From Pseudanabaena galeata CCNP1313 (GTDB taxonomy: Bacteria > Cyanobacteriota > Cyanobacteriia > Pseudanabaenales > Pseudanabaenaceae): a stretch of 64,000 bases of DNA. The DNA lies in NCBI RefSeq assembly GCF_029910235.1, contig NZ_CP112874.1, forward strand, positions 806,001 through 870,000. The letters are read 5' to 3'. Below are positions 10,260-63,249 of this stretch, piece by piece (the first letter of the stretch is position 1; each line of letters starts with the position of its first letter). The notes below the pieces were generated by a model. That model searched no databases, was not told the DNA's origin, and saw only the letters and a list, made by a program, of their open reading frames with translations. The position numbers were made by a program, and so were the translations under genes.

Positions 10260-10298
10260 AGAAAGTAGATGTGTTGCTTTGCAACACATCTACTTTCT
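10260..10298. terminator. Hairpin just after ntcA
   Basis: An 18-bp perfect stem (starting AGAAAGTAGATGTGTTGC) with loop TTT, core GCTTTGC. It abuts the ntcA stop at 10299. Confidence 0.75.
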
Positions 10299-17360: not shown

Positions 17361-17437
17361 GAAAGGACGCTTTGCGTCCTTTCAAACCCAAAAAGGAAAT
17401 GTTGGCACTTAGTGCCAACATTTCCTTTTTGGGTTTT
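17361..17437. terminator. Two consecutive hairpins after htpG
   Basis: The first is 17361-17383 (GAAAGGACGC, loop TTT). The second is 17384-17437, a roughly 25-bp stem (AAACCCAAAAAGGAAATG...) with loop CTTAG, ending in GGGTTTT. They follow the htpG stop by 9 bases. Confidence 0.75.
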
Positions 17438-18683: not shown

Positions 18684-18734
18684 AACCCAAGAAGAGAATG
18701 GCGGCGCGAAGCGCCGCCATTCTCTTCTTGGGTT
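18684..18734. repeat. Perfect 24-bp-stem hairpin
   Basis: The stem begins AACCCAAGAAGAGAATGGCG and closes on GAA with the core GCGAAGC. It is followed by TTATGTCC, the flank also seen in family C. It is not next to any gene end. Confidence 0.8.
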
Positions 18735-18972: not shown

Positions 18973-19746
18973 TTGACTCGATTTGTATTCGGCGATATTC
19001 ATGGTCAATTTGATGGCTTAATGAAGTTAATTGACTTTATTAAGTACAGTCCTAATGACAAATTGTATTTTTTGGGCGACTTAATTGATCGCGGCGAGCG
19101 CAGTGCCGATGTTGTGAACTGGGTAATGAGCAATAATCATATTTGCCTCAAGGGAAATCATGAGCAAATGTGTCTTGATGCTTTTGGCTGTAGCGAAGAA
19201 TCATTGATTTGGAAGGGATGGATACTGAATGGTGGTTCTAAAACCCTAGAAAGTTATGGAGCTGCTAATATGCCAGAAGCACATTTGGAGTGGATGCAGC
19301 AATTGCCACTTTATATGGATTTAGGTGATGTCTGGCTAGTCCATGCAGGCTTAAATCCCAATTTACCGCTCGAATTGCAAGGTGCGGCAGAGTTTTGTTG
19401 GATTCGCGAAGAATTTCATAGTGCGACAGAACCTTTCTTTGAAGACAAAATTATTATCACTGGACATACAATTACCTTTGTTTTTCCAGGGGTGAAACCA
19501 GGGAATTTAGTACTAGGCAAGGGATGGCTGGATATTGATACTGGTGGTTATCACCCTAAAAGTGGATGGCTATCGGCGTTGGACATCGATACTGCCACGG
19601 TCTATCAATGTAATACCTTTACCCATGAGTTAAGGGTAAATTCACTATCCGATATTACGACTGTGATTGAGCCGATGCCGACGCGATCGCAAAGACTGGA
19701 AATTGGCAAAACCAACGCCCAAAAGCGACGTTGGTCTTGGGTTTAA
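18973..19746 (+). CDS. Metallophosphatase of the PPP family (Ser/Thr phosphatase-like)
   Basis: 257 residues from TTG 18973, with GGGGTGAG just upstream; any later start would lose the GDIHG metal motif. PPP motifs in order: GDIHGQ (8-13), GDLIDRGERS (~37), KGNHEQM (~58), then VHAGLNP and TGHT for the remaining metal ligands. It should use two metal ions to dephosphorylate phosphoproteins or, in some relatives, dinucleoside polyphosphates. Two Ser/Thr kinases in the window could be functional partners, which is only an inference. The tail QKRRWSWV is basic and aromatic. Confidence 0.88.
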   Translation: MTRFVFGDIHGQFDGLMKLIDFIKYSPNDKLYFLGDLIDRGERSADVVNWVMSNNHICLKGNHEQMCLDAFGCSEESLIWKGWILNGGSKTLESYGAANMPEAHLEWMQQLPLYMDLGDVWLVHAGLNPNLPLELQGAAEFCWIREEFHSATEPFFEDKIIITGHTITFVFPGVKPGNLVLGKGWLDIDTGGYHPKSGWLSALDIDTATVYQCNTFTHELRVNSLSDITTVIEPMPTRSQRLEIGKTNAQKRRWSWV

Positions 19747-19781
19747 AAATAGAGATGTCGCAAAGCGACATCTCTATTTTT
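19745..19781. terminator. Bidirectional hairpin between the phosphatase and aguB
   Basis: A 17-bp perfect stem (AAAAATAGAGATGTCGC) closes on AAA, core GCAAAGC, with A and T runs at each end. It touches both converging stop codons. Confidence 0.85.
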
Positions 19782-22560: not shown

Positions 22561-22587
22561 GAGAGGCGGCGCGAAGCGCCGCCTCTC
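22561..22587. repeat. 12-bp-stem hairpin, GCGAAGC core
   Basis: GAGAGGCGGCGC, loop GAA and the exact complement, followed by TCTTTTGGTTTTATTTT. Confidence 0.8.
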
Positions 22588-22605
22588 TCTTTTGGTTTTA
22601 TTTTC

Positions 22606-22704
22606 TACAGCAATTACCAAACAAACAAACCACAAGAAACTTTTTGAAAGCGTTGCAAAGCAACGCTTTCAAAAAGTTTCTTGGTTTGAGCGCAAAGCGC
22701 TATA
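22606..22704. repeat. Palindromic repeat, family D copy 1
   Basis: Outer parts TACAGCAATTACCAAAC and TTGGTTTGAGCGCAAAGCGC enclose a perfect 23-bp stem (22634-22682) whose inner half is GAAAGCGTTGC and whose loop is AAA. The same arms surround a related but different stem at 46374-46480. Confidence 0.8.
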
Positions 22705-42737: not shown

Positions 42738-42855
42738 ATATAGCAACGTAAGTTTTGCTTAGGACATAAAACCAAAGAGATGAGTGGCGGCGCGAAGCGC
42801 CGCCACTCATCTCTTTGGTTTTGATTTATCCTATCTATCTCTTGCGTTGCTATAT
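42738..42855. repeat. Palindromic repeat, family C copy 1 (inverted)
   Basis: Left arm ATATAGCAACGTAAG plus TGCTTAGGACATAAAACC; right arm GGTTTTGATTTATCC plus ATCTCTTGCGTTGCTATA. The arms pair only imperfectly with each other. Inside is a perfect 22-bp stem (from CCAAAGAGATGAGTGG) closing on GAA. Its arm order is the reverse of copies 2 and 3. Confidence 0.85.
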
Positions 42856-42911
42856 ATAGCAACCAAAGGTTGACTTAGGACATAAAACCCAAAATACAAG
42901 AAGCTGAGATT

Positions 42912-42967
42912 GGGGCTTGGAGACCAAGCCCCTACAATAAATATGTAGGGATTTGGTCTCCAAATCC
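42912..42967. repeat. Inverted repeat with GGAGACCAAG/GGTCTCC core
   Basis: GGGGCTTGGAGACCAAGCCC plus CTAC pairs imperfectly with GTAGGGATTTGGTCTCCAAA; each half is itself a small palindrome. Not seen elsewhere in the window. Confidence 0.7.
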
Positions 42968-43008
42968 TCTTTTAAGATGATATGGAAACAGTATGACGAC
43001 GTAATATC

Positions 43009-43075
43009 ACGTGAGTTCGATATAGCCATTTGCGTCGTGCGAAGCACGACGCAAATGGCTATATCGAACTCACGT
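43009..43075. repeat. 67-bp perfect palindrome, family G copy 1
   Basis: A 32-bp perfect stem (ACGTGAGTTCGATATAGCC, then ATTTGCGTCGTGC) closes on GAA with core GCGAAGC. Its parts reappear at 63250-63363. Confidence 0.9.
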
Positions 43076-43182
43076 TAAAGTAGATAAAAAAGTAGATAAA
43101 GAAGAAAGACTAGCAATTCTCATAAAAAAAACGATTCTATATCAAAGCGCAAAATGGTATAGGGTACTTCTTAAACATACTC

Positions 43183-44778
43183 TTAGATTAAAGCATCAAA
43201 AACTTGATAGCATGACTTCCCAAGAGATTTAGCTTGATACATAGCAATATCGGCATCAGCGAGGATATCTTTTGGGGATTGATAGGATTCAACACTAAAA
43301 GCCATTCCCATACTCATAGAAATGCTGATCTCGTTCCCCTCAAGACAACAAGTAGGAGCCATCGCCGCTTGAATTCTTTCAATCGTAATGATTGCATCTT
43401 GCTTTTCTTTGAGATTATCTAGCAAAACCACAAACTCGTCACCACCAAGCCTAGCAGCAGTATCACCTGAGCGAATCGAGGCACTTAAACGTTTTGCCAC
43501 TTCGATCAATAGGCGATCGCCATTCAAATGACCTAGGTTATCGTTAATGGCTTTGAATCCATCCAAATCTATCAAAATAACTGCAAATAGATAACCATGT
43601 CTTTGATAGAGAGAAATCGCATGATTAATGCGATCGGTGAGTAAAATGCGGTTGGCTAAGCCCGTAAGATGATCATGAAAAGCTTCATAGGTAAGCTTAG
43701 AATTTATTTGTTGCAAATGTTGCCTTGATTCGATTTGATTTTGGACAATACTGAATAGTCCAATAGACAGGATTAAGGCGATCGGCATAGCTACAGGAAG
43801 CCAATAGCCATATATGTAGAATCCAAAAGCACAGACTCCCCAACCACCAGAGATGACTAGCACAATTACTATTTGTCTAAAAGTTTTACTTTGCCCAAGT
43901 ATCCAAGCTAGTAACATCCCCACTAATAGCATTATTCCCCAAGTCCAATGTATTTCAGGTACTCGTAACTGATTCTGCTGTAATAAGTTTTGGAGAATGT
44001 TGGCGTGTAAATGGACGCTATGAGCGGAATCATTTCCATCAAAAGGTGTCACCAATGCATCATGCCCTGTAGCAGTTACGCCTACAAGAACAATTTTATT
44101 TTGGAATGTATTTAGAGGAATCCGCTCTTCAATCACATCGACAAAGGAATATTGGCGCATTTGTTGAGGGCGATATGTCCAGTTGATGCAAAATGTCACA
44201 TCTGGATTGGGCATTGACACGTTTCCCCAAACAAGGTTATAGGCTTGTAAGGTAGCCATTGCTAGAGAAGGCGTATCATCTTTATATAATTCTGTCCAAC
44301 GCACGATCCCGTCACTACTCTTAGGCTCAAGAATATGTCCTGATCCGATCGCTACTTCCGCTAGTTGGGGAACTGGTAGTAACTTTTTGCCCTGAGCATT
44401 CCACGCTTGAGATAAAACAACATGTCTGTTGTCAGACATCACTCTGGATAACAATGCATCAGCAGAACTAGATTCTGACCAAATTAAATTAATTGCAACT
44501 GTACTCGCTTTAGCTTCGGTGAGCTTTTGAAGTAATGGGATATAGCGATCGCGCGTCCATGGAAAGCGTCCTAATTTTTCGATACTGACATCATCGATCG
44601 CAATAATTACTAAACGCTCATCCCAATTGCGATCAATGCGCCAATTGGTAAACCGATTATAGACAAAGTATTCAAGGGGTTGAAAAGCGCCCAAGTTAAA
44701 TAAAATGGCAGCGATTACCGTCGAGACTGTCCAAGGGATAGATTTCTGTACTATGCGTTTAGAAAATAACCAGTTCAT
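43183..44778 (-). CDS. CHASE2-GGDEF diguanylate cyclase
   Basis: 531 residues. N-terminal membrane helix (~15-35), a periplasmic CHASE2 sensor (~36-275; IIAIDDVSIEKLGRFPWTRDR), three more helices (~278-345) and a cytoplasmic GGDEF domain (~360-525). The catalytic loop GGDEF is intact at 445-449, and RSGD at 436-439 is the inhibitory I-site five residues upstream. It should make c-di-GMP from GTP with product feedback. Its first 20 bases overlap the end of the upstream FecR gene, so the periplasmic FecR protein is probably its partner or ligand source. Homologous over CHASE2 to the gene at 46499-49030. Confidence 0.9.
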   Translation of the reverse strand: MNWLFSKRIVQKSIPWTVSTVIAAILFNLGAFQPLEYFVYNRFTNWRIDRNWDERLVIIAIDDVSIEKLGRFPWTRDRYIPLLQKLTEAKASTVAINLIWSESSSADALLSRVMSDNRHVVLSQAWNAQGKKLLPVPQLAEVAIGSGHILEPKSSDGIVRWTELYKDDTPSLAMATLQAYNLVWGNVSMPNPDVTFCINWTYRPQQMRQYSFVDVIEERIPLNTFQNKIVLVGVTATGHDALVTPFDGNDSAHSVHLHANILQNLLQQNQLRVPEIHWTWGIMLLVGMLLAWILGQSKTFRQIVIVLVISGGWGVCAFGFYIYGYWLPVAMPIALILSIGLFSIVQNQIESRQHLQQINSKLTYEAFHDHLTGLANRILLTDRINHAISLYQRHGYLFAVILIDLDGFKAINDNLGHLNGDRLLIEVAKRLSASIRSGDTAARLGGDEFVVLLDNLKEKQDAIITIERIQAAMAPTCCLEGNEISISMSMGMAFSVESYQSPKDILADADIAMYQAKSLGKSCYQVFDALI

Positions 44779-45649
44779 AGATACGTTGTTTTCCCAAAGG
44801 ATTGGAGACGATAACTTTGATCTCAGCTCTATATATTGAATTGGTAGTTAATACAGCCCTGAATTGACCATTTCGATCAACAGCTTGCTCAACTCCATCA
44901 ATTGTTACTGTATTAGCAAAATCAACCTGTCCAGCTAGAATCACTTGGCGATCGCCATTTTCAAACTGCTTGAAAATTTGATACTCCAGATCGTTATTGT
45001 CCTGAATAGGGACTGGCTGCGAAGGTGGTTCTCCTAATACGGTCTGGTTTTGAAATCCTTGCTCCACTAAAACCTCTGTATTTTGGGCTTCAGTCATTAC
45101 TGAACCCTCAAAGGTAGAAAGAATCGTGCGACCATCATCCTTGACATTTAATACATATTCAGTACCTCTTACTCCTGTAACGACCGCAGGAGTCTGAATA
45201 TTAAATCGTGAACTAGGATTAGAAAATCGTCTAATTTGTAAGCGTACTTGTCCTTTAGGTACTTGTAAGATCGTAATTCTTCCATCGTCGCTAGTAACTT
45301 TTAGTGCATCTATACGAACTACTGTCCGCTCAGCAACATTAACAAAGCCGATACCTGTATCGACACTTAACACAGCCGTTGATTTGCCATCTGTGACAAT
45401 TTCATCACCAATTATCGAAAGGCGATCGCCTCTTCGTGCAGGACGATTAGTATTTTGGTTGCGTAAAAAAACCTTACCGCGCACTTGCTCTACTTGTAAA
45501 TATCGGTTTGTTTTTACTTGCAACTGAGATTGAGCAACACTCAGGTCAACTTTTCCGAACAGTCCTAAAATTAAAGCTGCACTTCCATAGCTAAAAACGC
45601 TAAGAAACTTTTTATTCCATAAGTTTTTGGTAGGGATAGTGTTTATCAT
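44759..45649 (-). CDS. FecR-domain periplasmic protein (copy 1)
   Basis: 296 residues. A signal peptide or N-terminal anchor (LSVFSYGSAALILGLFG, likely cleavage near VAQSQ) precedes a FecR domain with RRGDRLSIIGDEIVTDGKS, TAVLSVDTGIGFVNVAE and the typical NIQTPAVVTGVRGTEYVL. The C-terminal ~70 residues look like an Ig/carboxypeptidase-like beta-domain (VTIDGVEQAVDRNGQF). There is no sigma factor or FecA receptor nearby, so it is not a classical iron regulator. The stop overlaps the start of the CHASE2-GGDEF gene by 20 bases. It is similar along its whole length to 49011-49895. Confidence 0.87.
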   Translation of the reverse strand: MINTIPTKNLWNKKFLSVFSYGSAALILGLFGKVDLSVAQSQLQVKTNRYLQVEQVRGKVFLRNQNTNRPARRGDRLSIIGDEIVTDGKSTAVLSVDTGIGFVNVAERTVVRIDALKVTSDDGRITILQVPKGQVRLQIRRFSNPSSRFNIQTPAVVTGVRGTEYVLNVKDDGRTILSTFEGSVMTEAQNTEVLVEQGFQNQTVLGEPPSQPVPIQDNNDLEYQIFKQFENGDRQVILAGQVDFANTVTIDGVEQAVDRNGQFRAVLTTNSIYRAEIKVIVSNPLGKQRIYELVIF

Positions 45650-45854
45650 CTGTAAATGAAAAGAATAAATATAGGGATGAAGTGTAAATCACAAGAAATC
45701 TGAAGAGAAATCTACTTTGCTAAATAAGACTAGAAACCTTATTAAATTCTTAATCAAATTAGTATATTTAATTATTTAATAATGAAAACTAGTACAAAAC
45801 TAAGATTTATTTTGTAAACTTATTTGTCAGCTTCTTTAATATACCAAACTAATG

Positions 45855-45948
45855 TATAGCGATCCTAAATGATTTGTAAGATTTGGAGGGTTGTGAGAGT
45901 ACGTCCCTTCGGGGCGCACTCTCACAACCCATTTAAGATTGCTATATA
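45855..45948. repeat. Palindromic repeat, family A copy 3
   Basis: Begins TATAGCGATCCTAAATG and ends CATTTAAGATTGCTATATA; the inner stem GGTTGTGAGAGT.CG.CCC closes on TTC. It differs from copies 1 and 2 (976-1067, 1287-1380) at scattered positions. Confidence 0.85.
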
Positions 45949-45977
45949 AGTTGACGACATACTACAGTCGGGTTTGG

Positions 45978-46095
45978 TATATAACAATGCAAGAGATAGC
46001 TAGGACAAATCAAAACCCAAACAAATGAAGACGGAGCAAAGCTCCGTCTTCATTTGTTTGGGTTTTATGTCCTAAGCAAAACTTACACTAATATA
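45978..46095. repeat. Palindromic repeat, family C copy 2
   Basis: Left arm AACAATGCAAGAGATAGC plus TAGGACA; right arm TTTTATGTCCTAAGCAAAAC plus TTACACTAATATA. The central stem (from CAAACAAATGAAGACGGAGC, loop AAA) has no similarity to the core of copies 1 and 3, although the arms match. Confidence 0.85.
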
Positions 46096-46216
46096 GAACC
46101 TTACTGAGTTTGATTATTAATACATGCAGGTGTAGCTACACTTTTAAGAATTAGTATCACATGGCTTTGCCATCAAAAAAACAATCAAGAAATTTCTTGA
46201 TTGTTTCTGTTCGTGA

Positions 46217-46375
46217 TAATTAACCTCAGTTCAGGTTAATTTCAAACTACTTCCTAGAGAGAGTTCGCACCAAGAATCCTCTCTAGAAGCCAAAGCATTA
46301 AAAGCCTCTCTTAGCGAGGCTTTTAATGCTTTGGCTTCTAGAATTTTGTAGCTTATACCGAACTGAAGTTAATTA
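46217..46375. repeat. Palindromic repeat, family E (single copy)
   Basis: Outer TAATTAACCTCAGTTCAGG and CCGAACTGAAGTTAATTA pair with two differences. Inside are a short hairpin near 46256-46283 and a perfect 26-bp stem 46283-46341 (from CTAGAAGCCAAAGC) with a seven-base loop. Confidence 0.75.
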
Positions 46376-46480
46376 CAGCAATTGCCGATCAAACGAGCCA
46401 AAAGAACAAAAATTGAAAGCGTTGCTTTGCAACGCTTTCAATTTTTGTTCTTGGTTTGGATTTGAGCGCAAAGCGCTGTA
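46374..46480. repeat. Palindromic repeat, family D copy 2
   Basis: TACAGCAATTGCCGATCAAAC and TTGGTTTGGATTTGAGCGC arms match copy 1 (22606-22704). The stem 46402-46452 keeps GAAAGCGTTGC at the apex but has a different lower part and the loop TTT instead of AAA. Possible terminator for the CHASE2-GGDEF-EAL gene. Confidence 0.8.
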
Positions 46481-46498
46481 AAAACCGTAGAACAAAGT

Positions 46499-49030
46499 TC
46501 AGGTTGTTTGAAAAATTGCTTCGATCGCCGCAACATCAAGGGGGCGGAATAGAAAATAACCTTGACCATCCCCTTCTTCACTCAATAGATCTTGCAAATA
46601 ATTTAACTGAGCTAAGTTTTCAATACCTTCAGCGACAATATGAGCTTTAACACTCTGTGCCAAAGAAATAATCGCTTGAAGGATTTCCATACCATTTGTA
46701 TTTGCATGAATATTATTAACAAAGGAACGATCTATTTTCAAGCCATCGAAAGGGAATTTATGTAGATAGGCAAGCGAAGAATAACCTGTGCCGAAATCAT
46801 CTATATAAATATGAATTCCTGCTTGTCGCATCTGATTGAGAATACCTACTGCAAAATCAGGATTTTCCATGATTGCACTTTCCGTTAACTCGATTTTGAG
46901 GTGTTTAGGAGCTAGTTGTGTTTGTTGAAGGATACTCAGACATTTTTCTAGGACATCATCTTGCGCCAATTGTTTAGTTGATAGATTGACACTTACGGTA
47001 ATATCTTTAGCCTTAGCAAAGCGCTGATGCCAAGATTTGACCTGTAAGCAAGCATTTCGCATAATCCAATCACCTATGGGAATGATTAGCCCAGTCTCTT
47101 CAGCAAGGGGGATAAACTGGGTCGGTGATACTAATCCACGCTCAGGATGTTGCCAACGAATTAGAGCTTCTAGCCCCACGATCTGCATATCGCTAAGCGA
47201 GAGAATTGGTTGATAGTAAATTAGAAATTCTTGATGCTCTTGATTGTTTGAAGCTTGACAAAGAGCCACAGCTTTGCGGAGATCCTTTTCAAGTTGTAAG
47301 CGTTCGAGAACCCGTTCTCGCATAGAGATATCAAAGACTTTATTACATGAGTTGCCCAGTTTTTTGGCATAGAACATAGCCGTGTCTGCATCTCGCAATA
47401 GAATTTCTGGAGAAATTATTTCGGGAGCAACACTACTGTCATGCCCATTAATTAAGTGGAACTTAAGACCAATATTAGCGAAGATCTTAATGTCATGGTC
47501 ATCAATCTTAAAGGTTTTTTGGAGATTGATTTGAATGCGATCGCCAATTGCGATCGCCTCTTGTTCATTTGGCAAGTCTTCCAATAAAATCACAAACTCA
47601 GCACCACCAAAACGCGCAATTGATGAAGTCTTGGGAACAGAACCTTGCAAACATTTGCTGACTTCAATTAGTAATAGATTTCCAATCGGATGACCAAAGG
47701 TATCATTAATAGTTTTAAATCGATCTAAATTAATCCAAAGAATAGCGATAAGATTGTAGGGAGGGGCATACTGAGAAGTTACATCTTGGGAACAGAGTAG
47801 AGTTTGTAAGCGGTTCTCAATCAAAGTACGGTTATATAATCCTGTTAAGTGATCATGGGTGGATTTATATAAAATTTGAGCATCGGCAATCTTTAGAGAG
47901 CGATACATTTGCCAGCGTTCTTGTAGGGTGATCGCAAAACCTGTTAGTAGAAACATCAAAATGGGAACAGATAGATCGATCAAGTAGTTAGCTGTAAAGG
48001 CAACAAAAGCAATAGTCATCCATAAACCAGACATCACAAATGCACTTATACCGCCAGTCCATAAATTCTGCCTTGGTAGAATCAAACCAATAAATAGACT
48101 CCCCAATAGTGCAAAGCTCCAGATATAGGATGGTTTAGCAACCACAAGTGAGTTTTTTTGTAATAGATTTTGCAAAATCATAGCGTGTAAATGCACACCA
48201 CTGGCAGGAGGATTACGATCAAAAGGAGTCGCCAAATTATCAATTCCTGATGCTGTGACTCCAACTAAGACAATTTTATTTTGGAAAGCCGAGGCAGGAA
48301 CTTTACCATCAATGACATCACTGAAAGAGACTTGGGGAACGTCTCTGATTCGACTTGTCCAATTAATCAATAATGGCTGGTTTAACTCTGGCAATAGAGT
48401 GATGGCGGCAGTCGTCAGATCGTAGGTTTGTAATATCGCCACACCTAGAGTGGGGATATCTTGGAGTTGCAAATCAATTTGACGCACAATGCCATCAACA
48501 TCTTCACGTTTAAGAATATGACCAATTGCCACACCTGCATTACCAATAGGGGCGATCGGCAGCAGGGGGTTTCCTGACTTATCCCAAGCCATCGCCAGAA
48601 CGACTTTCTGATATTTAGCAAGGGAAGCAACTAACTGCGGATCTGCGGGAGTTGCTTCAGACCATAAAATATCGAAGCCTACTACACTAGCTTCAGTTTG
48701 TTCAAGTTTAGATAAAAGCTGGACATAGCGATCGCGTGACCATGGAAATCTGCCAACTTTGCTAACGCTCTGATCGTCTATGGCAATAATGATCACGCGA
48801 TCGTCCCAAGGGAGATCTCCTCTCCAGTTTGTAAAACTGTTGTAAGCCCAAAATTCGATTGGTTGTAAGACTCCCAAGTGTAGCAGGGGAATTAAGACAA
48901 TTGAGGCAAATAACGTGGGTAAAGCTCGAAACAACAAGCAGGCTAAACGCGACAGCATACGTTTAGCAAAATATTTTGTTAACAATTTAGAAAATAATCG
49001 AGAAATAAACTCAGAGAATGGGGATCTCAT
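46499..49030 (-). CDS. CHASE2-GGDEF-EAL protein, probable c-di-GMP phosphodiesterase
   Basis: 843 residues. Membrane helix ~35-55, CHASE2 sensor ~55-300 (IIAIDDQSVSKVGRFPWSRDR), helices ~303-370, GGDEF ~385-565, EAL ~580-840. The cyclase loop is degenerate, GGAEF at 475-479, and no RxxD I-site is present, so cyclase activity is unlikely. The EAL domain keeps EAL at 621-623, DDFGTGYSSLAYL and VAEGIE, so phosphodiesterase activity is expected. It starts inside the end of FecR copy 2 (20-base overlap). Paired with the GGDEF protein at 43183-44778, the locus seems to encode opposing enzymes under related sensors. Confidence 0.9.
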   Translation of the reverse strand: MRSPFSEFISRLFSKLLTKYFAKRMLSRLACLLFRALPTLFASIVLIPLLHLGVLQPIEFWAYNSFTNWRGDLPWDDRVIIIAIDDQSVSKVGRFPWSRDRYVQLLSKLEQTEASVVGFDILWSEATPADPQLVASLAKYQKVVLAMAWDKSGNPLLPIAPIGNAGVAIGHILKREDVDGIVRQIDLQLQDIPTLGVAILQTYDLTTAAITLLPELNQPLLINWTSRIRDVPQVSFSDVIDGKVPASAFQNKIVLVGVTASGIDNLATPFDRNPPASGVHLHAMILQNLLQKNSLVVAKPSYIWSFALLGSLFIGLILPRQNLWTGGISAFVMSGLWMTIAFVAFTANYLIDLSVPILMFLLTGFAITLQERWQMYRSLKIADAQILYKSTHDHLTGLYNRTLIENRLQTLLCSQDVTSQYAPPYNLIAILWINLDRFKTINDTFGHPIGNLLLIEVSKCLQGSVPKTSSIARFGGAEFVILLEDLPNEQEAIAIGDRIQINLQKTFKIDDHDIKIFANIGLKFHLINGHDSSVAPEIISPEILLRDADTAMFYAKKLGNSCNKVFDISMRERVLERLQLEKDLRKAVALCQASNNQEHQEFLIYYQPILSLSDMQIVGLEALIRWQHPERGLVSPTQFIPLAEETGLIIPIGDWIMRNACLQVKSWHQRFAKAKDITVSVNLSTKQLAQDDVLEKCLSILQQTQLAPKHLKIELTESAIMENPDFAVGILNQMRQAGIHIYIDDFGTGYSSLAYLHKFPFDGLKIDRSFVNNIHANTNGMEILQAIISLAQSVKAHIVAEGIENLAQLNYLQDLLSEEGDGQGYFLFRPLDVAAIEAIFQTT

Positions 49031-49895
49031 AGACTTGTATCTTTCCCGTAGGGGTCTCCACCGTTACTTTCACCTTTAGGCTTGAAGTTGCAGGTAATTG
49101 TAGAGCAAACTTTCCAATGCGATCTAAAGACTGTTCTAGCCCATCTACCTTAACAGTATTAAAAGGGTTAGTGTAACCTAAAAAAGACACAGAGCGACCT
49201 GAGCTTGAGGTTTGTCGATTAATTGCATATCTTAAACTTGCATCATTACTAATCGGCACAGGAGTTGATGGGGATTCACCAACAACTGTGAGATTTTGAA
49301 ACCCTCCATTGACGATCTTTGTCTGATTTCTGGCAGTCGTCTCAACACTACCATCAAAGGTGGTGGTGATCATATTGCCATTCGGTCTAGCAATCACAGT
49401 AAATGTTGTACCCCTTACGCCACTTATACCCGCAGGGGTTTGTATATTTAGTTGAGAACCACGATTTGTAAATTTACGAATCTGTAGTCTTGCTTTACCG
49501 CGTGGAACAAACAAATTGGTGATTCTGCCATTATCGGTGGCAATCCGAAAAGAACGGATTTGGATTGTTGTATTTTCTGCCACATAGATTGACCCAACGC
49601 CTGTATCCACACTCAAAACTGCCGAACTATTTGCACCCGTAGAAATTTCGTCACTGGTCGTTTGCAAGCGATCGCCGACTTTTGCCTCTCGATTTGCATA
49701 ATTATATAGGTTGCGATATTTAACGTTTCCCATAACTTTATCAACTTTTAACCATTGATCAGTACGAACTTGAATAGCTCTTTGCGCTTCAGTTTGTTGC
49801 TGATCTTGAGGTAATACGTTAGTCCCTAAGACATTAATTAAAAGTCCTAAACAAGTAATAAAAATTAGATTAAGTCTTTTTCGTTTTTGAATCAT
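49011..49895 (-). CDS. FecR-domain periplasmic protein (copy 2)
   Basis: 294 residues with an N-terminal hydrophobic segment (LNLIFITCLGLLINVLG). The FecR domain shows VGDRLQTTSDEISTGANS, SAVLSVDTGVGSIYVAENT and NIQTPAGISGVRGTTFTV. The C-terminal beta-domain (TVKVDGLEQSLDRIGKFALQ) resembles that of copy 1. It overlaps the CHASE2-GGDEF-EAL gene by 20 bases, exactly as copy 1 overlaps its own CHASE2 gene, which indicates duplication of the gene pair. 124 bases downstream of the kinase-WD40 gene on the same strand, possibly one transcription unit. Confidence 0.87.
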   Translation of the reverse strand: MIQKRKRLNLIFITCLGLLINVLGTNVLPQDQQQTEAQRAIQVRTDQWLKVDKVMGNVKYRNLYNYANREAKVGDRLQTTSDEISTGANSSAVLSVDTGVGSIYVAENTTIQIRSFRIATDNGRITNLFVPRGKARLQIRKFTNRGSQLNIQTPAGISGVRGTTFTVIARPNGNMITTTFDGSVETTARNQTKIVNGGFQNLTVVGESPSTPVPISNDASLRYAINRQTSSSGRSVSFLGYTNPFNTVKVDGLEQSLDRIGKFALQLPATSSLKVKVTVETPTGKIQVYEIPIL

Positions 49896-50019
49896 TTTGG
49901 CTGTATTTTGGTATTTACTAAAAAATTTGCTTGAAACCTAGATCTAAAACTTGTAGCGCAAACTTAGCTTGCACTTACATGCTTTAGCTTTTTATTATGG
50001 GGCGCACAATTACCATTTC

Positions 50020-52041
50020 TCAAAGCTCAGGTATTTCCCAAATATTAATATTTCTATCTTGGCTACCGCTAATCAGTTTAAGATTATCTGGAGAAATGAT
50101 TAGAGAAGTTACCAAATCTGTATGCCCAATCAAGTTCCAAGTTGAAGATTGGGTTGCAAGATTCCATATGCGAATGGAATTTGGATTTTCTTTACCACCA
50201 CTAAAGAGATATTTACCATCTCTAGTAATCGCGATCGCACTGATCGCATCCTCATGCCCCTCCAAAGTAAATAGCTGCTTGCCTGAAGCAATATCCCAAA
50301 CCCGAATCACTTTATCATTACCACCACTAATTACCTGCTTACCGTTAGGAGTGATCAATACACAAGTTACCCCAGCAAGAGAACCTGTCAAAGTTTGCAA
50401 GTTTTCCCCTGTATCCACATCCCAAACCTTTAATGTCCTATCGCGACTAGCACTAACAACTCGCTTGCCATCGTTTGAAATCGCAACACCCCAAATTTTA
50501 TCAGTATGTCCCTTGAGCGATCGCCGCAACTTGCCCGTCGATATTTGCCAAAGATTAACATTATTGTCATAGCTGCCACTGACCAGCAGATCGCTGCTAA
50601 GGGCGATCGCTAAATTATGAATTAAGTTAGTGTGACCACTCATGGTTCTGATCACTTTACCTGAATTGATATCAATGATTTTGATCGTTTTGTCTTGCCC
50701 TGCGGTAACAATCTGGAGATCGGATAGAAAGGCTACGGCTCTTACCCATCCGCCTTGATCTTTGATTTCTTTAATTGGACTAGTTTTATCACCGTCTAAT
50801 TCCCAAAGTTTGACGGTTCCATCGTCACTAGCACTAGCGATCACCTTGCCATTAGGACTAAGTGCAACATTCTGCACCGCATCAGTATGATAACCTTGCA
50901 GAAATTTTGTCGGATTCAGGCGTTTCTTTTGAAATACTGGTAGTTGAATACTAATCTCCTCAAAATTACCGATCGCTGAGATCTTAATTACCGTACCAAT
51001 ACTCAGCCCCACAAACGCAGCAACGATCACCGATACTATTAGCAAAATCGGGGAAGTTGGTTTACGAGTTGAGTCTTTAATCGCCTGTTTGATCGCTTTC
51101 CGTTTAGCCTTTGTTTTGTAATGGGGTGCGAGTTTATCAATCTGTTCAATTTCTCTAAGAATTTTTAAAATTGCTTCACAATTGATTGGGCGATCGCTAG
51201 GCTTGCGAGCAATCATTACATCAATTAAATCTGCTAACTCATCCGAAATTTCAGGCGCGTGTGATCGCCACTCAAACATATCGCGATCGGGATTGTAGGT
51301 ATCAAGGGGATATTTGCCAGTCACCAAATGGATCATTGTGCAGCCAAGGGCATAAAAATCTGACTGTGGTACAGCAAACCCTTTTTCTTGTTCGGGAGAA
51401 GTGTAGCCTACTGAACAAATGCTTGTCACACCCTGCAAACCACCAATTTTAGCCAGATAGGTATGCGTCGCTTCACGAGCCGTCCCAAAATCAATGAGAA
51501 CTAGCTGCCCCGAAGGAGACAACATAATATTTGCAGGTTTAATATCACGATGAAAATATTTGTTGTAATGGACTACGGCGAGAATATCTACCAATTGCTT
51601 TAGCCAAGCGATCGCTCGTTTTTGGGCGATCGGTTTCCGCTCACGTTGATTGATCCATTGTTCGAGGTTTAGCCCCTCGATTTTTTGCATGACGATACCG
51701 TGTAGCATTGACCCGTTTTCGAGTTCATGATGTACATAGGTCTCAATTTTGGGTATCCCCGCATGTTCGATCTGTCCTAATACAAAGGCTTCTTGCTGAA
51801 AGAGCGATACAGCTTTTTTATCTGCATTCAATTCCTGCTTCAAAATTTTTAGAATTTTGGGGTTACCTGCGGCATCATTGGCTTCGTAAACCATGCCAAA
51901 GCCACCTGTATCGCTTAATAATTTGGTAGCTGTATAACAACCATCAATCAATAATTCGGAACCACATCCTTGACAAGTTGAGTAATTATCATTGTCAGGA
52001 TGGTCAGGGATCGGGCAAGTAGGATTAATGCATAGACGCAT
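50020..52041 (-). CDS. Ser/Thr protein kinase with N-terminal zinc ribbon and WD40 repeats
   Basis: 673 residues. Residues 1-30 carry four cysteines (C4, C9, C23, C26), a probable zinc ribbon. The kinase (~34-300) has LLSDTGGFGMVYEA, Lys in KILKILKQEL, HRDIKPANI and LIDFGTAREA, then SVGYTSPEQ. One membrane helix (~326-350; PILLIVSVIVAAFVGLSIG) separates it from an extracytoplasmic-side region of about seven WD40 repeats ending in e.g. KVWDVDTG, RVWDIASG and NIWEIPEL, which should form one propeller. Such kinases are common in filamentous cyanobacteria. It is upstream of the FecR2/CHASE2 pair and could regulate it, a guess from position only. Confidence 0.92.
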   Translation of the reverse strand: MRLCINPTCPIPDHPDNDNYSTCQGCGSELLIDGCYTATKLLSDTGGFGMVYEANDAAGNPKILKILKQELNADKKAVSLFQQEAFVLGQIEHAGIPKIETYVHHELENGSMLHGIVMQKIEGLNLEQWINQRERKPIAQKRAIAWLKQLVDILAVVHYNKYFHRDIKPANIMLSPSGQLVLIDFGTAREATHTYLAKIGGLQGVTSICSVGYTSPEQEKGFAVPQSDFYALGCTMIHLVTGKYPLDTYNPDRDMFEWRSHAPEISDELADLIDVMIARKPSDRPINCEAILKILREIEQIDKLAPHYKTKAKRKAIKQAIKDSTRKPTSPILLIVSVIVAAFVGLSIGTVIKISAIGNFEEISIQLPVFQKKRLNPTKFLQGYHTDAVQNVALSPNGKVIASASDDGTVKLWELDGDKTSPIKEIKDQGGWVRAVAFLSDLQIVTAGQDKTIKIIDINSGKVIRTMSGHTNLIHNLAIALSSDLLVSGSYDNNVNLWQISTGKLRRSLKGHTDKIWGVAISNDGKRVVSASRDRTLKVWDVDTGENLQTLTGSLAGVTCVLITPNGKQVISGGNDKVIRVWDIASGKQLFTLEGHEDAISAIAITRDGKYLFSGGKENPNSIRIWNLATQSSTWNLIGHTDLVTSLIISPDNLKLISGSQDRNINIWEIPEL

Positions 52042-52136
52042 GGTGTTTTAGAGCATACCAGTCTAAACTTACTATATCGCTAGCGCAGTCAATTTGTAGC
52101 AAAGCCATAAAAGTATAGGGACGATTAAGGGCTTTA

Positions 52137-52170
52137 AAAACACAAAATAGTTTAGCCATTTTGTGTTTTG
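52137..52170. repeat. Hairpin between divergent kinase-WD40 and LivM genes
   Basis: AAAACACAAAAT pairs with ATTTTGTGTTTT around an eight- to ten-base loop AGTTTAGCC. Similar stem sequence to 18485-18517. Located upstream of both genes. Confidence 0.65.
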
Positions 52171-52217
52171 GTATAACAACCCATCTACTTTTCTTTTATG
52201 GTTGAGTAAATTTATCT

Positions 52218-53114
52218 ATGATCGAATACGTCTCAACACTTTTCATTAACGCGGCTATCTTCGCTTTGTTTAGTCTAGGACTAAATCTACAATGGGGATT
52301 TGCAGGGTTGGTTAACTTTGGGCATGTGGCGTTTATGACGGTCGGAGCCTATACCACCGTATTGCTGAGCCTTAATGGTGTGCCTTGGTTTTTGGCTTTT
52401 CTAATAGCCGCAGCGATCGCTGGTTTACTGGGCATTATCATCGGCAGTACCGCCTTAAAATTGCGCGAAGACTATCTGGGAATCGTTACCATCGGTGTGT
52501 CAGAGATGGTACGTCTATTTGTGAACAATGAAGAATGGCTGACCAAAGGCACAAGGGGCGTGCAGGATTTTCCGCTCCCTTTAGTTAATCTAGTCTCACG
52601 TCAATATTATTCCTTTGTGTTGGCAGCACTCTTACTGGTAGTAGTGGCAATAGTATATTGGCGATTAGAGTGGTTAGTGCGATCGCCTTGGGGAAGAGTA
52701 CTTAAGGCAATTCGTGAAGATGAAGAAGTAGTTAAGGCGCTAGGTAAAAATGTATTTTGGTATAAATTACAAGCCTTTGCGATCGGTGGAGCGATCGGCG
52801 GATTAGCAGGATCATTTTATGCTTGGCAATTAACTACTGTTTATCCTGATAATTTCATTCCTCTGATCACTTTCCAAGCATGGACAATCATCACAATTGG
52901 CGGTGCTGGCAACAATTTGGGTGTCATACTTGGTGCGGCAATATTTCAGTTTTACAATGCTCTGCCTCGGTTTCTACCTGAACAAATCCGTGCTGATGGT
53001 GGTAGGTTTGAGGCGGTTCAACTAATTCTGATCGGTGTTACTCTAATTTTGCTGATGGTATGGCGACCACAGGGAATTTTAGGTAATAAAAAAGAATTAA
53101 CTTTAAATCGTTAA
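52218..53114 (+). CDS. LivM-type permease of a branched-chain/neutral amino acid ABC transporter
   Basis: 298 residues with eight or nine membrane helices. The family blocks LNLQWGFAGLVNFGHVAFM, LREDYLGIVTIGVSEM, RSPWGRVLKAIREDEEV and the EAA-like loop, then FQAWTIITIGGAGNNLGVILG, identify the LivM/NatC-D group. It would form a heterodimeric membrane channel with a LivH-type permease, two ATPases and a periplasmic binding protein, none of which is in the window; scattered Nat genes are known in cyanobacteria. ATG 52218 gives the usual N-terminus. Substrate is presumably neutral amino acids. Confidence 0.88.
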   Translation: MIEYVSTLFINAAIFALFSLGLNLQWGFAGLVNFGHVAFMTVGAYTTVLLSLNGVPWFLAFLIAAAIAGLLGIIIGSTALKLREDYLGIVTIGVSEMVRLFVNNEEWLTKGTRGVQDFPLPLVNLVSRQYYSFVLAALLLVVVAIVYWRLEWLVRSPWGRVLKAIREDEEVVKALGKNVFWYKLQAFAIGGAIGGLAGSFYAWQLTTVYPDNFIPLITFQAWTIITIGGAGNNLGVILGAAIFQFYNALPRFLPEQIRADGGRFEAVQLILIGVTLILLMVWRPQGILGNKKELTLNR

Positions 53115-53177
53115 AAAATAAAGACATTAACCTTTTGTGAATTTGGATTACATGTAATCCAAAACCAGATTGCACAT

Positions 53178-53297
53178 CTATAGCAAGCAGCGCAAGAGAT
53201 AGCTAGGACATAAAACCAAAAAGATGAGTGGCGACGCAAAGCGCCGCCACTCATCTTTTTGGTTTTATGTCCTAAGCAAAACTTACATTGCTATATA
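53178..53297. repeat. Palindromic repeat, family C copy 3
   Basis: Left arm TATAGCAAGCAGCGCAAGAG plus ATAGCTAGGACATAAAACC; right arm GGTTTTATGTCCTAAGC plus AAAACTTACATTGCTATA. The stem core GATGAGTGGCG resembles copy 1, but the loop is AAA and one pair is mismatched. Same orientation as copy 2. Confidence 0.85.
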
Positions 53298-53692: not shown

Positions 53693-53700
53693 CCAAATTT

Positions 53701-53733
53701 ACAAAGAGAGTTCGCTTTGCGAACTCTCTTTGT
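53701..53733. terminator. grxC terminator
   Basis: ACAAAGAGAGTTCGC, loop TTT and the exact complement; core GCTTTGC. Confidence 0.8.
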
Positions 53734-53776
53734 AATAAGAGTAAAAGCCTCGCTTTGCGAGGCTTTTACTCTTATT
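53734..53776. terminator. Terminator of the GyrA/ParC gene
   Basis: AATAAGAGTAAAAGCCTCGC, loop TTT and the exact complement. It directly abuts the grxC terminator and overlaps the stop codon of the converging gene at 53772. Confidence 0.85.
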
Positions 53777-56590: not shown

Positions 56591-56637
56591 AAACAAAAAA
56601 GAGAGGTGATGCTTTGCATCACCTCTCTTTTTTGTTT
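56591..56637. terminator. Terminator of the adenylate cyclase gene
   Basis: AAACAAAAAAGAGAGGTGATGC, loop TTT and the exact complement, one base from the stop region (56639). On the minus strand a T-rich tail follows. Confidence 0.85.
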
Positions 56638-59296: not shown

Positions 59297-59486
59297 ATCA
59301 GCACTAAGATTTTCGGTTTAGTCCCAACTTTTTTAAGAGTGGTGATGCTTATCGCAGCACTCTTGTTCCACTTGCACTGTTGCTTTTGAGTTTATGCAAA
59401 GCCAATTTCGTCAAATTGAAAAAATTATCTTAGCACCCCTCAGATTGAGATCGCAAACCTAGACACTATAGGCGGCGCGAATCAAC

Positions 59487-59539
59487 GACTCAAGTAAGTT
59501 AAGCAGACTGCGGTGCAGTCTGCTTAACTTACTTGAGTC
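59487..59539. terminator. Hairpin spanning the aroK stop codon
   Basis: A 25-bp perfect stem (from GACTCAAGTAAGTTAAGC) closes on GGT. The aroK TAA (59529-59531) lies inside the right arm, so the last codons of the gene are part of the hairpin. Confidence 0.85.
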
Positions 59540-60068
59540 GATCTGGGGAAATTCGAGCTTGGATCATCTCAAATAGGCGATCTCTGACGGCTTCGGTGGT
59601 TTCATTCTCTGTGACCATGATCGAAATATCGGCTTGAGCATAGCGATCGCGACGTTGGTTATAGATATCATTGAGGGTTTGTAATGGATCAGCAGTTTGC
59701 AAAAGAGGGCGTTGCTCCGATGCTGTTTTGAGGCGATGGTATAAAGTCTCAACAGGGACATCAATCCAAACAACAATGCCATCGTGTAAGTGCGACCAAT
59801 TGAGCGATCGCATGACGATTCCGCCGCCTGTTGCCACAACTAGACGGGTATAGGCCGAGACTTGTGAAAGTACTTGTTGTTCAAGATCGCGAAATGTCTC
59901 TTCGCCATCCTTGGCAAAAATTTCAGGAATTGATTTCCCTGCACATTTCTCAATAAGTGGGTCGGTATCTAAAAAGTTGTAACCTAATTTTTGTGCTAAA
60001 AGCTTGCCGACGGTGCTTTTACCTGCACCCATCATCCCAATCAAAAATATATTCGTTCCGTTGAGCAT
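59529..60068 (-). CDS. aroK: Shikimate kinase
   Basis: 179 residues. Phosphorylates shikimate at O3 with ATP. P-loop LIGMMGAGKSTVGK at residues 9-22, shikimate-binding Asp in YNFLDTDPLIE, the Walker-B-like ATGGGIVM, the lid Arg in SEQRPLLQ and the adenine-binding RRDRYAQADISI. Length is normal. It works five steps after DAHP synthesis, two steps before AroC, whose gene is at 1.6 kb. Ends inside a strong hairpin. Confidence 0.96.
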   Translation of the reverse strand: MLNGTNIFLIGMMGAGKSTVGKLLAQKLGYNFLDTDPLIEKCAGKSIPEIFAKDGEETFRDLEQQVLSQVSAYTRLVVATGGGIVMRSLNWSHLHDGIVVWIDVPVETLYHRLKTASEQRPLLQTADPLQTLNDIYNQRRDRYAQADISIMVTENETTEAVRDRLFEMIQARISPDRLK

Positions 60069-60266: not shown

Positions 60267-61844
60267 ATGCTGAACTATCGCACAGTCTTATCTCATAAAA
60301 TTTTACAAAAAAAATGGATATTAGGTTTAGGGATTGTCAGTGTTGCTGCGATCACCAACACCTTATTTTCCCTTGAGCATGACTGGCATTTACTGAGCAT
60401 AAGTACGCTAATGATTGGCGGCACACTTTTGTTTGTGAATGTGCGAAAGAGCTTTGCTGCGGGGATAGAACAACCGACGGTAATCGATCGCAGTTATCTA
60501 TTTAAAGAACTACAGCAAGCGCAAAAGGCGATCGCCAAAATTGCCGATCTAGGTAAGCGTGACACCTTAGACGCGCAAGCTCAGCAAATCACCAACAATC
60601 TCCAAAAAAATCATTTTCAGATCGTCGTTTTTGGCACAGGCTCCGCAGGCAAAACTTCGGTAATTAATGCTTTGTTGGGACGCAAGGCAGGTAAGACTGG
60701 GGCAGCAATTGGCACAACGATCGCTCGTCAAGAATACGCTTGTCAAGGAATCGATTTTTCACCCGTTGGCATAACGCCAATTCAAAGTGAAAACAAGGTT
60801 AAGCGACAGATTTCTTTGCTTGATACATCGGGGACGCAAGAAATGGGAGCGATGGGACAGCAGAGAGAAATCGAATCTTTGCAAGTTGTCCAAAATGCCG
60901 ATCTGATGATTTTTGTAACGGAGGGAGATTTAACCAATAGCGAATATTGCGAACTCGAACGCCTTGCTGGTTTAGGTAAGCGTGTAATTCTTGTTTTTAA
61001 TAAGACGGATTTGTATTTGCCAAGCGATCGCGAAAATGTATTAGCCAAACTCAAGGAACGCACTCAGCATTTCTTAGCTACCACTGATATTGTGGCGATC
61101 GCCGCTCAGCCGAGTCCCATCAAAGTACGTCAATATGCCAATGCTGAAGATTCAGTTCATAGTGATGCAATTCAAGAATGGTGGGAAGATCTACCGCCAG
61201 ATGTGACTGCTTTAAAAGAACGCATTGAGACAATTCTTTCTAATGAGTGGGAAGATTTGCTAATTCACAATACCCATCTGCAAATCAAGAATTTGCTACA
61301 GGAAATCAATGGCACAATCAATCATCAACGCCGCCAAGATGCCGCCACAATCATTAATCGTTATCAATTAATCGCCGCTACGACAGTTTTTGCGAATCCC
61401 ATCCCTGCGATCGATTTGTTGGCTGGAGCCGCAATCAATACCCAAATGTTGATGGATCTCGGCAAAATTTATGATCGTCCCCTCAATTTCAAACAGACTC
61501 AACAAGTTGCAATGATCATTGCCCAGCAATTATTACAACTTGGGTGCATCGAAATCGCCAGCTCAGCGATCGCCTCCTGCTTTAAGGTAAATGCGCTCAC
61601 CTATGCGATCGGTGGCTCCATGCAAGCCGTTACCGCCGCCTACTTAACTCACATTGGCGGTATGAGTTTTGTGGAATATCTAGAGCAGCAACCTGAAACA
61701 CAATCTGCTCCTGCGATGACTAATGCATTGCAACAAATATGTCAAAAAACCTTTAACGCGTTACAAAGCGATCGCTTCTTTATCGACTTTGTAACCAGTA
61801 TTTCCAGTCGTGTCGCTAGCAACTACGGCGCTTTGCGCTCATAA
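60267..61844 (+). CDS. Membrane-associated GTPase with DUF697-type C-terminus
   Basis: 525 residues. Two N-terminal membrane helices (WILGLGIVSVAAITNTLF and LLSISTLMIGGTLLFVN), then a G domain ~115-320: G1 GTGSAGKTSVIN, G2-like GTTIARQEY, G3 LLDTSGTQEM, G4 FNKTD. The C-terminal ~170 residues match YcjF/DUF697 proteins (LIAATTVFANPIPAIDLLAG, then YAIGGSMQAVTAAYLTHIGG), forming a helical, partly hydrophobic bundle. These cyanobacterial proteins are of unknown function, with links to membrane or chloroplast biogenesis proposed for relatives. It converges with psb30; one terminator serves both. Confidence 0.87.
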   Translation: MLNYRTVLSHKILQKKWILGLGIVSVAAITNTLFSLEHDWHLLSISTLMIGGTLLFVNVRKSFAAGIEQPTVIDRSYLFKELQQAQKAIAKIADLGKRDTLDAQAQQITNNLQKNHFQIVVFGTGSAGKTSVINALLGRKAGKTGAAIGTTIARQEYACQGIDFSPVGITPIQSENKVKRQISLLDTSGTQEMGAMGQQREIESLQVVQNADLMIFVTEGDLTNSEYCELERLAGLGKRVILVFNKTDLYLPSDRENVLAKLKERTQHFLATTDIVAIAAQPSPIKVRQYANAEDSVHSDAIQEWWEDLPPDVTALKERIETILSNEWEDLLIHNTHLQIKNLLQEINGTINHQRRQDAATIINRYQLIAATTVFANPIPAIDLLAGAAINTQMLMDLGKIYDRPLNFKQTQQVAMIIAQQLLQLGCIEIASSAIASCFKVNALTYAIGGSMQAVTAAYLTHIGGMSFVEYLEQQPETQSAPAMTNALQQICQKTFNALQSDRFFIDFVTSISSRVASNYGALRS

Positions 61845-61878
61845 AAAAAAGGAGGGTGCTTTGCACCCTCCTTTTTTT
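61844..61878. terminator. Bidirectional terminator between the GTPase gene and psb30
   Basis: AAAAAAAGGAGGGTGC, loop TTT and the complement, with A- and T-runs on both sides; core GCTTTGC. Ideal for both directions. Confidence 0.88.
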
Positions 61879-63215: not shown

Positions 63216-63249
63216 AATTCACAAAAGTGCGACCACACTTTTGTGAATT
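63216..63249. repeat. AATTCAC inverted repeat, copy 2
   Basis: AATTCACAAAAGT and ACTTTTGTGAATT pair exactly around eight bases. Close relative of 1523-1556. Confidence 0.75.

Follow-up and report, generated by a model that had tools for sequence, protein, structure and literature searches.

How does a long hairpin keep its two arms almost perfectly complementary while its sequence drifts? The question is raised by three related elements, each of about 116 bp, in a 64,000-nucleotide stretch of the Pseudanabaena galeata CCNP1313 genome (5.84 Mb, 6 contigs; contig NZ_CP112874.1, G000:C1:806001-870000 in our numbering), which is called the window here. Read from TATA to TATA, they occupy 42739-42854, 45980-46095 and 53179-53295, where an earlier note on this DNA had placed them, and share the arms described there. 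We consider it likely that copying of one arm from the other during replication keeps such hairpins near-perfect while their sequence drifts. Arm-to-arm copying itself, one of two explanations offered in the earlier note, is strongly supported by an excess of paired changes in the stem, by inversions of the loop, by a symmetric deletion and by A-arm sequence found on the B side.

Paired changes and a spared tip

Read with its A-arm first, an element consists of TATAGCAAYGTAAGTTTTGCTTAGGACATAAAACC, a core, a 3-nt loop, the complement of the core and GGTTTTGATTTGTCCTATCTATCTCTTGCGTTGCTATA. Copy 1 (+ strand) follows this order with TATAGCAACGTAAGTTTTGCTTAGGACATAAAACC, the core AAAGAGATGAGTGGCGGCGC, the loop GAA and the B-arm GATTTATCCTATCTATCTCTTGCGTTGCTATA; its hairpin at 42768..42822 is a perfect 26-bp stem with a 3-nt loop, and its core carries one paired change, A>G, relative to the commonest core. 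Copies 2 and 3 lie on the minus strand with the B-arm first, and the supposedly opposite arm order of copy 1 is merely the orientation of the whole element, both orientations being common in the family. Copy 2 (core CCAAACAAATGAAGACGGAGC, loop AAA on the plus strand) also has a perfect 26-bp stem, at 46012..46066, and copy 3 has 34-nt arms that are 97% complementary (53204..53274), with a single mismatch four pairs away from the loop. All three cores are thus perfect or near-perfect stems, as had been claimed. The asymmetry claimed for the arms holds for the outer arms of copy 3 and fails for its inner ones, as the inner A-arm sequence also stands on the B side (TAGGACATAAAACC on both sides).

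Copies of the family were gathered by their arms, with no perfect stem required. This gave 182 copies. We retained 100 with at most 3 of 19 pairs differing from the commonest core (core 1), of which 68 are from this genome, 30 from Pseudanabaena sp. SR411 and 2 from elsewhere, and excluded the other 82. Stem pairs are numbered outward from the loop; the counts omit pair 20, which has a C/A polymorphism. Paired changes numbered 5 against 26 one-sided changes at pairs 1-8, 21 against 4 at pairs 9-19 and 11 against 16 at pairs 21-26 (AAAACC); the tip differs from the middle with P = 4.6e-7 and the base from the middle with P = 0.0018. For pairs 1-19 in the 68 copies of this genome, none of 20,000 permutations reached the observed difference, and the 30 SR411 copies alone gave p = 0.022. 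Independent change on the two sides would give an expected 0.16 paired changes at pairs 9-19, about 130-fold fewer than the 21 seen, and many of the paired changes are confined to a single copy. A first table of positions (113 copies; 28 paired and 16 one-sided changes at pairs 1-9, 107 and 26 at pairs 10-26, p = 0.039) was replaced by the 100-copy set because its core filter was looser and it included changes shared by subfamilies.

This distribution is what would be left by a nascent strand that copies the first arm, the loop and about the first 8 bases of the second arm and then folds back on its own tip. Extension would run outward with the nascent first arm as template. The strand would then pair again with the original template, either close to the foot of the stem or, in some cases, within the TAGGAC shared by the flanking arms. 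Mutations distal to the tip would be erased or made symmetric and those within it would stay one-sided, because the fold-back would use the roughly 8-bp tip as a primer that is not re-copied. We infer both the fold-back on the nascent strand and the priming length, the 8-bp limit being taken from the position table.

Six further hairpin families were scored likewise, with counts that include subfamily-inherited changes and orthologous copies. The split between tip and middle recurs in three of them (QQ, WW and RR, p < 0.05). In the 84 copies of QQ, paired and one-sided changes were 96 and 50 at pairs 1-8 and 101 and 4 beyond; the corresponding counts were 9/42 and 52/13 in WW (65 copies), and 7/12 and 15/5 in RR (19 copies).

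Loop inversion, copied flanks and the history of the cores

Forty-five orthologous hairpin comparisons were made among nine genomes in three close groups, 14 of them between this genome and SR411. The window holds 34 hairpins, of which 21 have orthologous flanks in SR411 and 13 were scored; scoring was limited to hairpins with loops of 1 or 3 nt and to sites with a hairpin of similar sequence, and early rows whose match was confined to the family arms, in alignments of about 30-55 nt, were dropped. Blind synteny comparisons of G025 with G022 and of G011 with UWO311 gave few orthologous hairpins. The loop was inverted in 18 of the 45 comparisons, unchanged in 10 and otherwise changed in 17. Three inversions are equivalent to one base substitution and therefore not diagnostic; the remaining 15 lie at 12 distinct loci that would otherwise need three simultaneous base changes, although one of these, at 15805, has a short, imperfect stem. 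The cleanest cases are the hairpin at 10260..10298, which lies outside the family and whose 18 stem bp are identical in SR411 while the loop is inverted (TTT to AAA), and one in G011 and lw0831 with an identical 20-bp stem and TTC turned into GAA. The loops of 99 arm-oriented copies of the family are TTC (47), GAA (32), TTT (12), AAA (7) and TGC (1). Loop inversion would require a second, interstrand form of template switching. Between M085S1 and UWO311, the identical three bases have been lost from both arms of one hairpin.

Copying also extends beyond the stem. In element 3 and three other copies of this genome, a B outer arm is joined to an A inner arm sequence that adjoins the stem on the B side; the copied tract of these hybrids stops in or next to TAGGAC, a stretch common to the two arms. 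One more copy of this genome has an A inner arm and an untyped outer arm, and no copy with an A outer and a B inner arm was found among those typed. Two copies, L006 (ACTT) and L030 (TAGTACAT), carry a private mutation of the A-arm on the B side too, in L030 five bases beyond the stem.

The other explanation in the earlier note, replacement of whole cores, was based partly on copy 2, whose core had seemed unrelated to the other two. At the orthologous site, the insertion is also present in SR411; its arms are similar, and its stem is different but aligns with that of copy 2 free of gaps. The two stems differ at 7 of 26 pairs, with both sides changed in four of these and a single side in three, and the loop is inverted (AAA/TTT). 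A core related to that of copy 2, CCAAATAAATGAAGGCGGCGC, is present in L241 and in one of the 57 full-length copies of this genome. Across these 57 copies, arm distance correlates with stem distance (Mantel r = 0.42, p = 0.011) while the loop does not track the arms (r = 0.05, p = 0.17), so the cores mostly share the history of the arms. Wholesale core replacement is therefore not needed, given also that the arms are kept in the SR411 ortholog of copy 2. The earlier note had counted a single phylogeny of arms and cores with ordinary compensatory substitutions against its own proposal: the shared history is found, the ordinary-looking substitutions are not.

The comparison of close strains at the same locus, which the earlier note had recommended, did uncover a difference in the element itself at copy 3. 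Between the same flanks, SR411 (L062) has a different element with like termini, TATAGCAATCCTAAATGGG..CTTGCGTTGCTATA, and re-insertion at one site or element exchange does occur there. The change at this locus concerns a whole element; replacement is not borne out as a general process acting on cores, which show intermediate forms. Copy 1 had no orthologous flank in the SR411 contigs searched.

Mobile elements and hairpin density in Pseudanabaena

The elements belong to a family of miniature inverted-repeat transposable element (MITE)-like repeats of about 116 bp with the ends TATAGCAA..TTGCTATA and terminal inverted repeats (one end is TATAGCAAYGTAAG, the other TATAGCAACGCAAG or something close to it). 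With at most one mismatch, the 14-base arm motif TAGGACATAAAACC occurs at 142 + 106 places in the genome (248), against 2 + 3 (5) for a backwards-pattern control. At least 40 places match copy 3 at 87% identity or more (BLAST, 40 of 432 candidates scored), and matches to the element were found in all 26 genomes of the genus. The three elements contain no open reading frame (ORF) of at least 90 aa, and Rfam gave no match in the window at gathering score. Short length, lack of coding capacity, inverted ends and high copy number fit a MITE. In L035, L037 and L040, a second type of outer end (TATAGCTGTCGCCATTCTTG..GGTGGCTATAGCTATA) surrounds the same inner arms.

Most element ends are flanked by TA, and IS630-type elements have a TA target. 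A clean empty site was looked for and none was found for the family itself; one is available for the sister family D3, whose repeat at 45855..45960 (TATAGCGATCC..GATTGCTATA), with its own hairpin, is missing from SR411, where the site reads AATGTATGAGTTGACG, as expected for insertion at a TA target. The end of D3, TATAGCAATCCTAAATGAG, is found as well next to a transposase gene of the DDE_3 (IS630) type at G000:C1:37044-37328, a decayed copy with the D3 end TATAGCAATCC among the 22 DDE_3 places of the genome. We regard the elements as non-autonomous MITE-like mobile repeats that are probably moved by a transposase of the IS630 family. Counting against this, none of the 22 DDE_3 places bears the ends of the element family as its own, so the transposase was not found among them; matches resembling TATAGCAAYGYAAG close to L261, L264 and L281 belong to small elements of their own and are not ends of the transposase element. 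Seven of the 22 DDE_3 copies have the ends TATAGCGGTTTTCAAATGAGC and an open frame of 238 aa. These seven IS630-type elements (L260-L266, about 1020 bp) have equal scores and were perhaps recently active.

Perfect hairpins with stems of at least 14 bp are dense in the genus. The window has 48 per 100 kb and other Pseudanabaena stretches have 31-40, whereas the figure for other cyanobacteria is 2.8 (18 in 38 loci, 644 kb), which makes Pseudanabaena 11-17 times denser; the pools overlap in part through shared stretches. No such hairpin was found in 144 kb of archaeal loci. The loci were picked by title from 79 with a livM relative (38 from other cyanobacteria, 12 from archaea and 21 from the genus or near it). 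The livM-like protein of the window has its closest named match in Pseudanabaena sp. SR411 (99% protein identity), and its best named matches are from Pseudanabaena. Three-base loops in the Pseudanabaena pools (n = 209) are mostly TTC/GAA (71), AAA/TTT (65) and GTA/TAC (30).

A 15-bp piece of stem with a 3-nt loop is predicted to fold at about -20 kcal/mol as single-stranded DNA. Loops could not be ranked by stability with this DNA energy model because all six that were tried gave the same -20.4 kcal/mol. Mini-hairpins of the d(GCGAAGC) type are extraordinarily stable. The available part of PMC10527192 describes a class of mini-hairpins with their melting points. One hairpin family, VV (AATTCACAAAAGTG, for example at 63216-63249), is hardly homogenised, with 31 paired and 115 one-sided changes. 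It was scored allowing loops of 3-5 nt, its commonest loops have 4 nt, and the contrast suggests that loop or tip stability matters.

Several other hairpins of the window also differ from their SR411 counterparts. Between convergent ORFs, the hairpin at 19745..19781 has an inverted loop (AAA/TTT) and one one-sided change, two pairs from the loop. At 59486..59540, where the flanks are about 95% identical, pairs 8, 9, 12 and 14 have changed on both sides and pairs 20, 21 and 24 on one. A terminator-like hairpin at 61844..61878 (+ strand), which begins at the stop codon of an ORF, shows four paired changes (pairs 5, 6, 9 and 10) and no one-sided ones. The hairpins at 18684-18734, 22561-22683, 46282-46452 and 56591-56637 have no clear similar counterpart at the orthologous SR411 site, which suggests rapid turnover. 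An extra hairpin at 53699-53735, adjoining that at 53734-53776, is missing in SR411 and was gained or lost, perhaps in one step. Next to element 1, at 42855..42890 (+ strand), lies a half copy of family D7, TATAGCAACCAAAGGTTGACTTAGGACATAAAACCC, with the rest of the element missing.

Explanations weighed and known systems

Template switching accounts jointly for the paired changes, the spared tip, the loop inversions and the copied flanks. Several observations weigh against it or blur its footprint. Three of the six other families show no split of the expected kind: paired and one-sided changes at pairs 1-8 and beyond were 13/9 and 22/13 in D3 (19 copies, p = 0.79, all 13 outer one-sided changes lying at the last two pairs), 13/71 and 18/44 in VV (71 copies, p = 0.065, mostly one-sided throughout) and 1/0 and 0/3 in the only 4 copies of D8. 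Changes inherited by subfamilies are counted more than once in this scoring, and the tip is G+C-rich, so mutability varies along the stem. The tip effect is weaker in same-locus comparisons (stems of at least 14 pairs, flanks at least 88% identical), with 12 paired and 27 one-sided changes at pairs 1-8 and 20 and 11 at pairs 9-18 (p = 0.008, or 0.026 without the one locus that has a symmetric deletion), and paired changes do occur inside the tip at 17384 (pairs 2, 6 and 7) and at 61844 (pairs 5 and 6). The loop correlates weakly with the stem across the 57 full-length copies (r = 0.16, p = 0.001), and both sides are B-type in a copy from another genome (BB/BB), so that copying may not be one-way. 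An estimate that gives copying and erasing equal odds predicts, from the event rate of the tip, 0.0194 paired changes per middle pair where 0.0191 were seen; this agreement may be luck, and we do not lean on it, because the changes in the unpaired arms (145/3285, or 0.044 per site) predict about twice the middle paired rate of 0.019.

Selection for base pairing in an RNA, a terminator or another structure, acting through ordinary two-step compensatory substitutions would be the conventional reading. Its appeal lies in the terminator-like features (a G+C-rich stem with a T run) of elements 1 and 2 on both strands and of element 3 on the minus strand only, and in the many window hairpins that, by eye, lie directly downstream of ORFs; the region has 43 terminator-scored sites, several being registers of one hairpin, against a shuffle mean of 17.5. 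From these features, the element hairpins may act as terminators. Against this reading, paired changes exceed independence about 130-fold. One mismatched pair among 26 ought to have little effect on the stem, and still mismatches are rare in the middle and common at the tip. Selection for pairing alone explains neither the spared tip nor the loop inversions and the copied flanking tracts with their private mutations, which lie outside any pairing constraint, and we judge this explanation quite unlikely. An extruded cruciform in which mismatch repair or gene conversion homogenises the arms, with no polymerase template switch, would also give paired changes and copied arm tracts, and the predicted folding energy of the stem piece suits it. 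By itself it predicts neither an unrepaired tip nor loop inversion, and the copying in L030 extends at least five bases past the stem, into arms of unequal length. The spared tip favours fold-back over an extruded cruciform; cruciform repair could contribute part of the pattern, but as the full explanation it appears improbable.

A little more credible, though still unlikely, is wholesale replacement, in which recombination through shared arms would swap cores between elements. The same inner arms do surround several core groups and two types of outer end, and a different element occupies the copy-3 locus in SR411, but the correlation of arms and stems, the many paired changes confined to one copy and the alignable, intermediate stems at the same locus all speak against it. 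The density of hairpins, finally, could reflect a genus-wide loss of a hairpin-cleaving enzyme that lets perfect hairpins accumulate. Loss of SbcCD as the cause was rejected, SbcD scoring above the cut-off in 26/26 genomes (SbcC and other nucleases were not searched for), and enzyme loss strikes us as the least probable of these explanations. Arm copying by template switching is thus the reading we retain. A bolder extension, which we offer as speculation with the odds against it, is that hairpin copying is unusually active in Pseudanabaena, that every stable hairpin with a 3-nt loop, mobile or not, evolves there as a unit, and that the elements spread because their hairpins remain near-perfect at no cost and act as ready-made bidirectional terminators.

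Covariation of paired bases is commonly taken as proof of a selected RNA structure. Here, in about 100 near-identical hairpins from two close genomes, it was seemingly made by the mutation process itself, and the position of changes along the stem, a copied middle against an uncopied tip of about 8 bp, helps to separate the two causes. The case counsels caution in taking covariation in mobile hairpins for a sign of function. From sequence data alone, the genus could yield estimates of template-switch rates, of the priming length and of strand bias.

Among the matches listed in the open-access literature, no description was found of this element family, of the hairpin density or of a resolved footprint. 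Like the bacterial MITEs in the available text of PMC10969869, the elements are short, non-coding and numerous with terminal inverted repeats, and terminator-like sequences are known there from other MITEs; unlike them, they have a near-perfect hairpin of at least 26 bp filling the middle of the element. Repetitive extragenic palindromic (REP) elements, palindromes tagged with GTAG/CGTC, are likewise short and repeated and also occur in cyanobacteria, according to the portion of PMC3733652 consulted, but the elements here differ in having terminal inverted repeats. Printed copies showed by eye no GTAG/CGTC tag at the foot of the stem, which reads AAAACC/GGTTTT or close variants. Nezha and other small mobile repeats of cyanobacteria (cited in the accessible parts of PMC3733652 and PMC10969869) are similarly miniature and mobile, a likeness by description only. 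Inverted repeats in mitochondrial genes of Nematomorpha vary in sequence between species while their arms remain identical, as here, and conversion or template switching has been proposed for them in the sections available of PMC6649704; they differ in being coding and mitochondrial, reaching 284 bp and forming no mobile repeat family.

The closest parallel is template-switch mutation, or quasipalindrome correction, as treated in the accessible text of PMC8794818 (Monttinen and Loytynoja 2022) and PMC8604942 (Abraham and Hazkani-Covo 2021), with homogenised arms, instantaneous paired changes, inversion of the loop or spacer and fold-back priming proposed for stable loops. The mechanism is already known, and it is the hairpin density and the resolution of its footprint that are unusual. 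In the rRNA genes covered by that part of PMC8794818, compensatory changes combined with loop inversion are extremely rare (6), with 69 clusters of loop inversion only, whereas inverted loops are frequent in the Pseudanabaena hairpins that were compared, the pattern recurs across many copies of a mobile repeat and the uncopied tip is put at about 8 bp.

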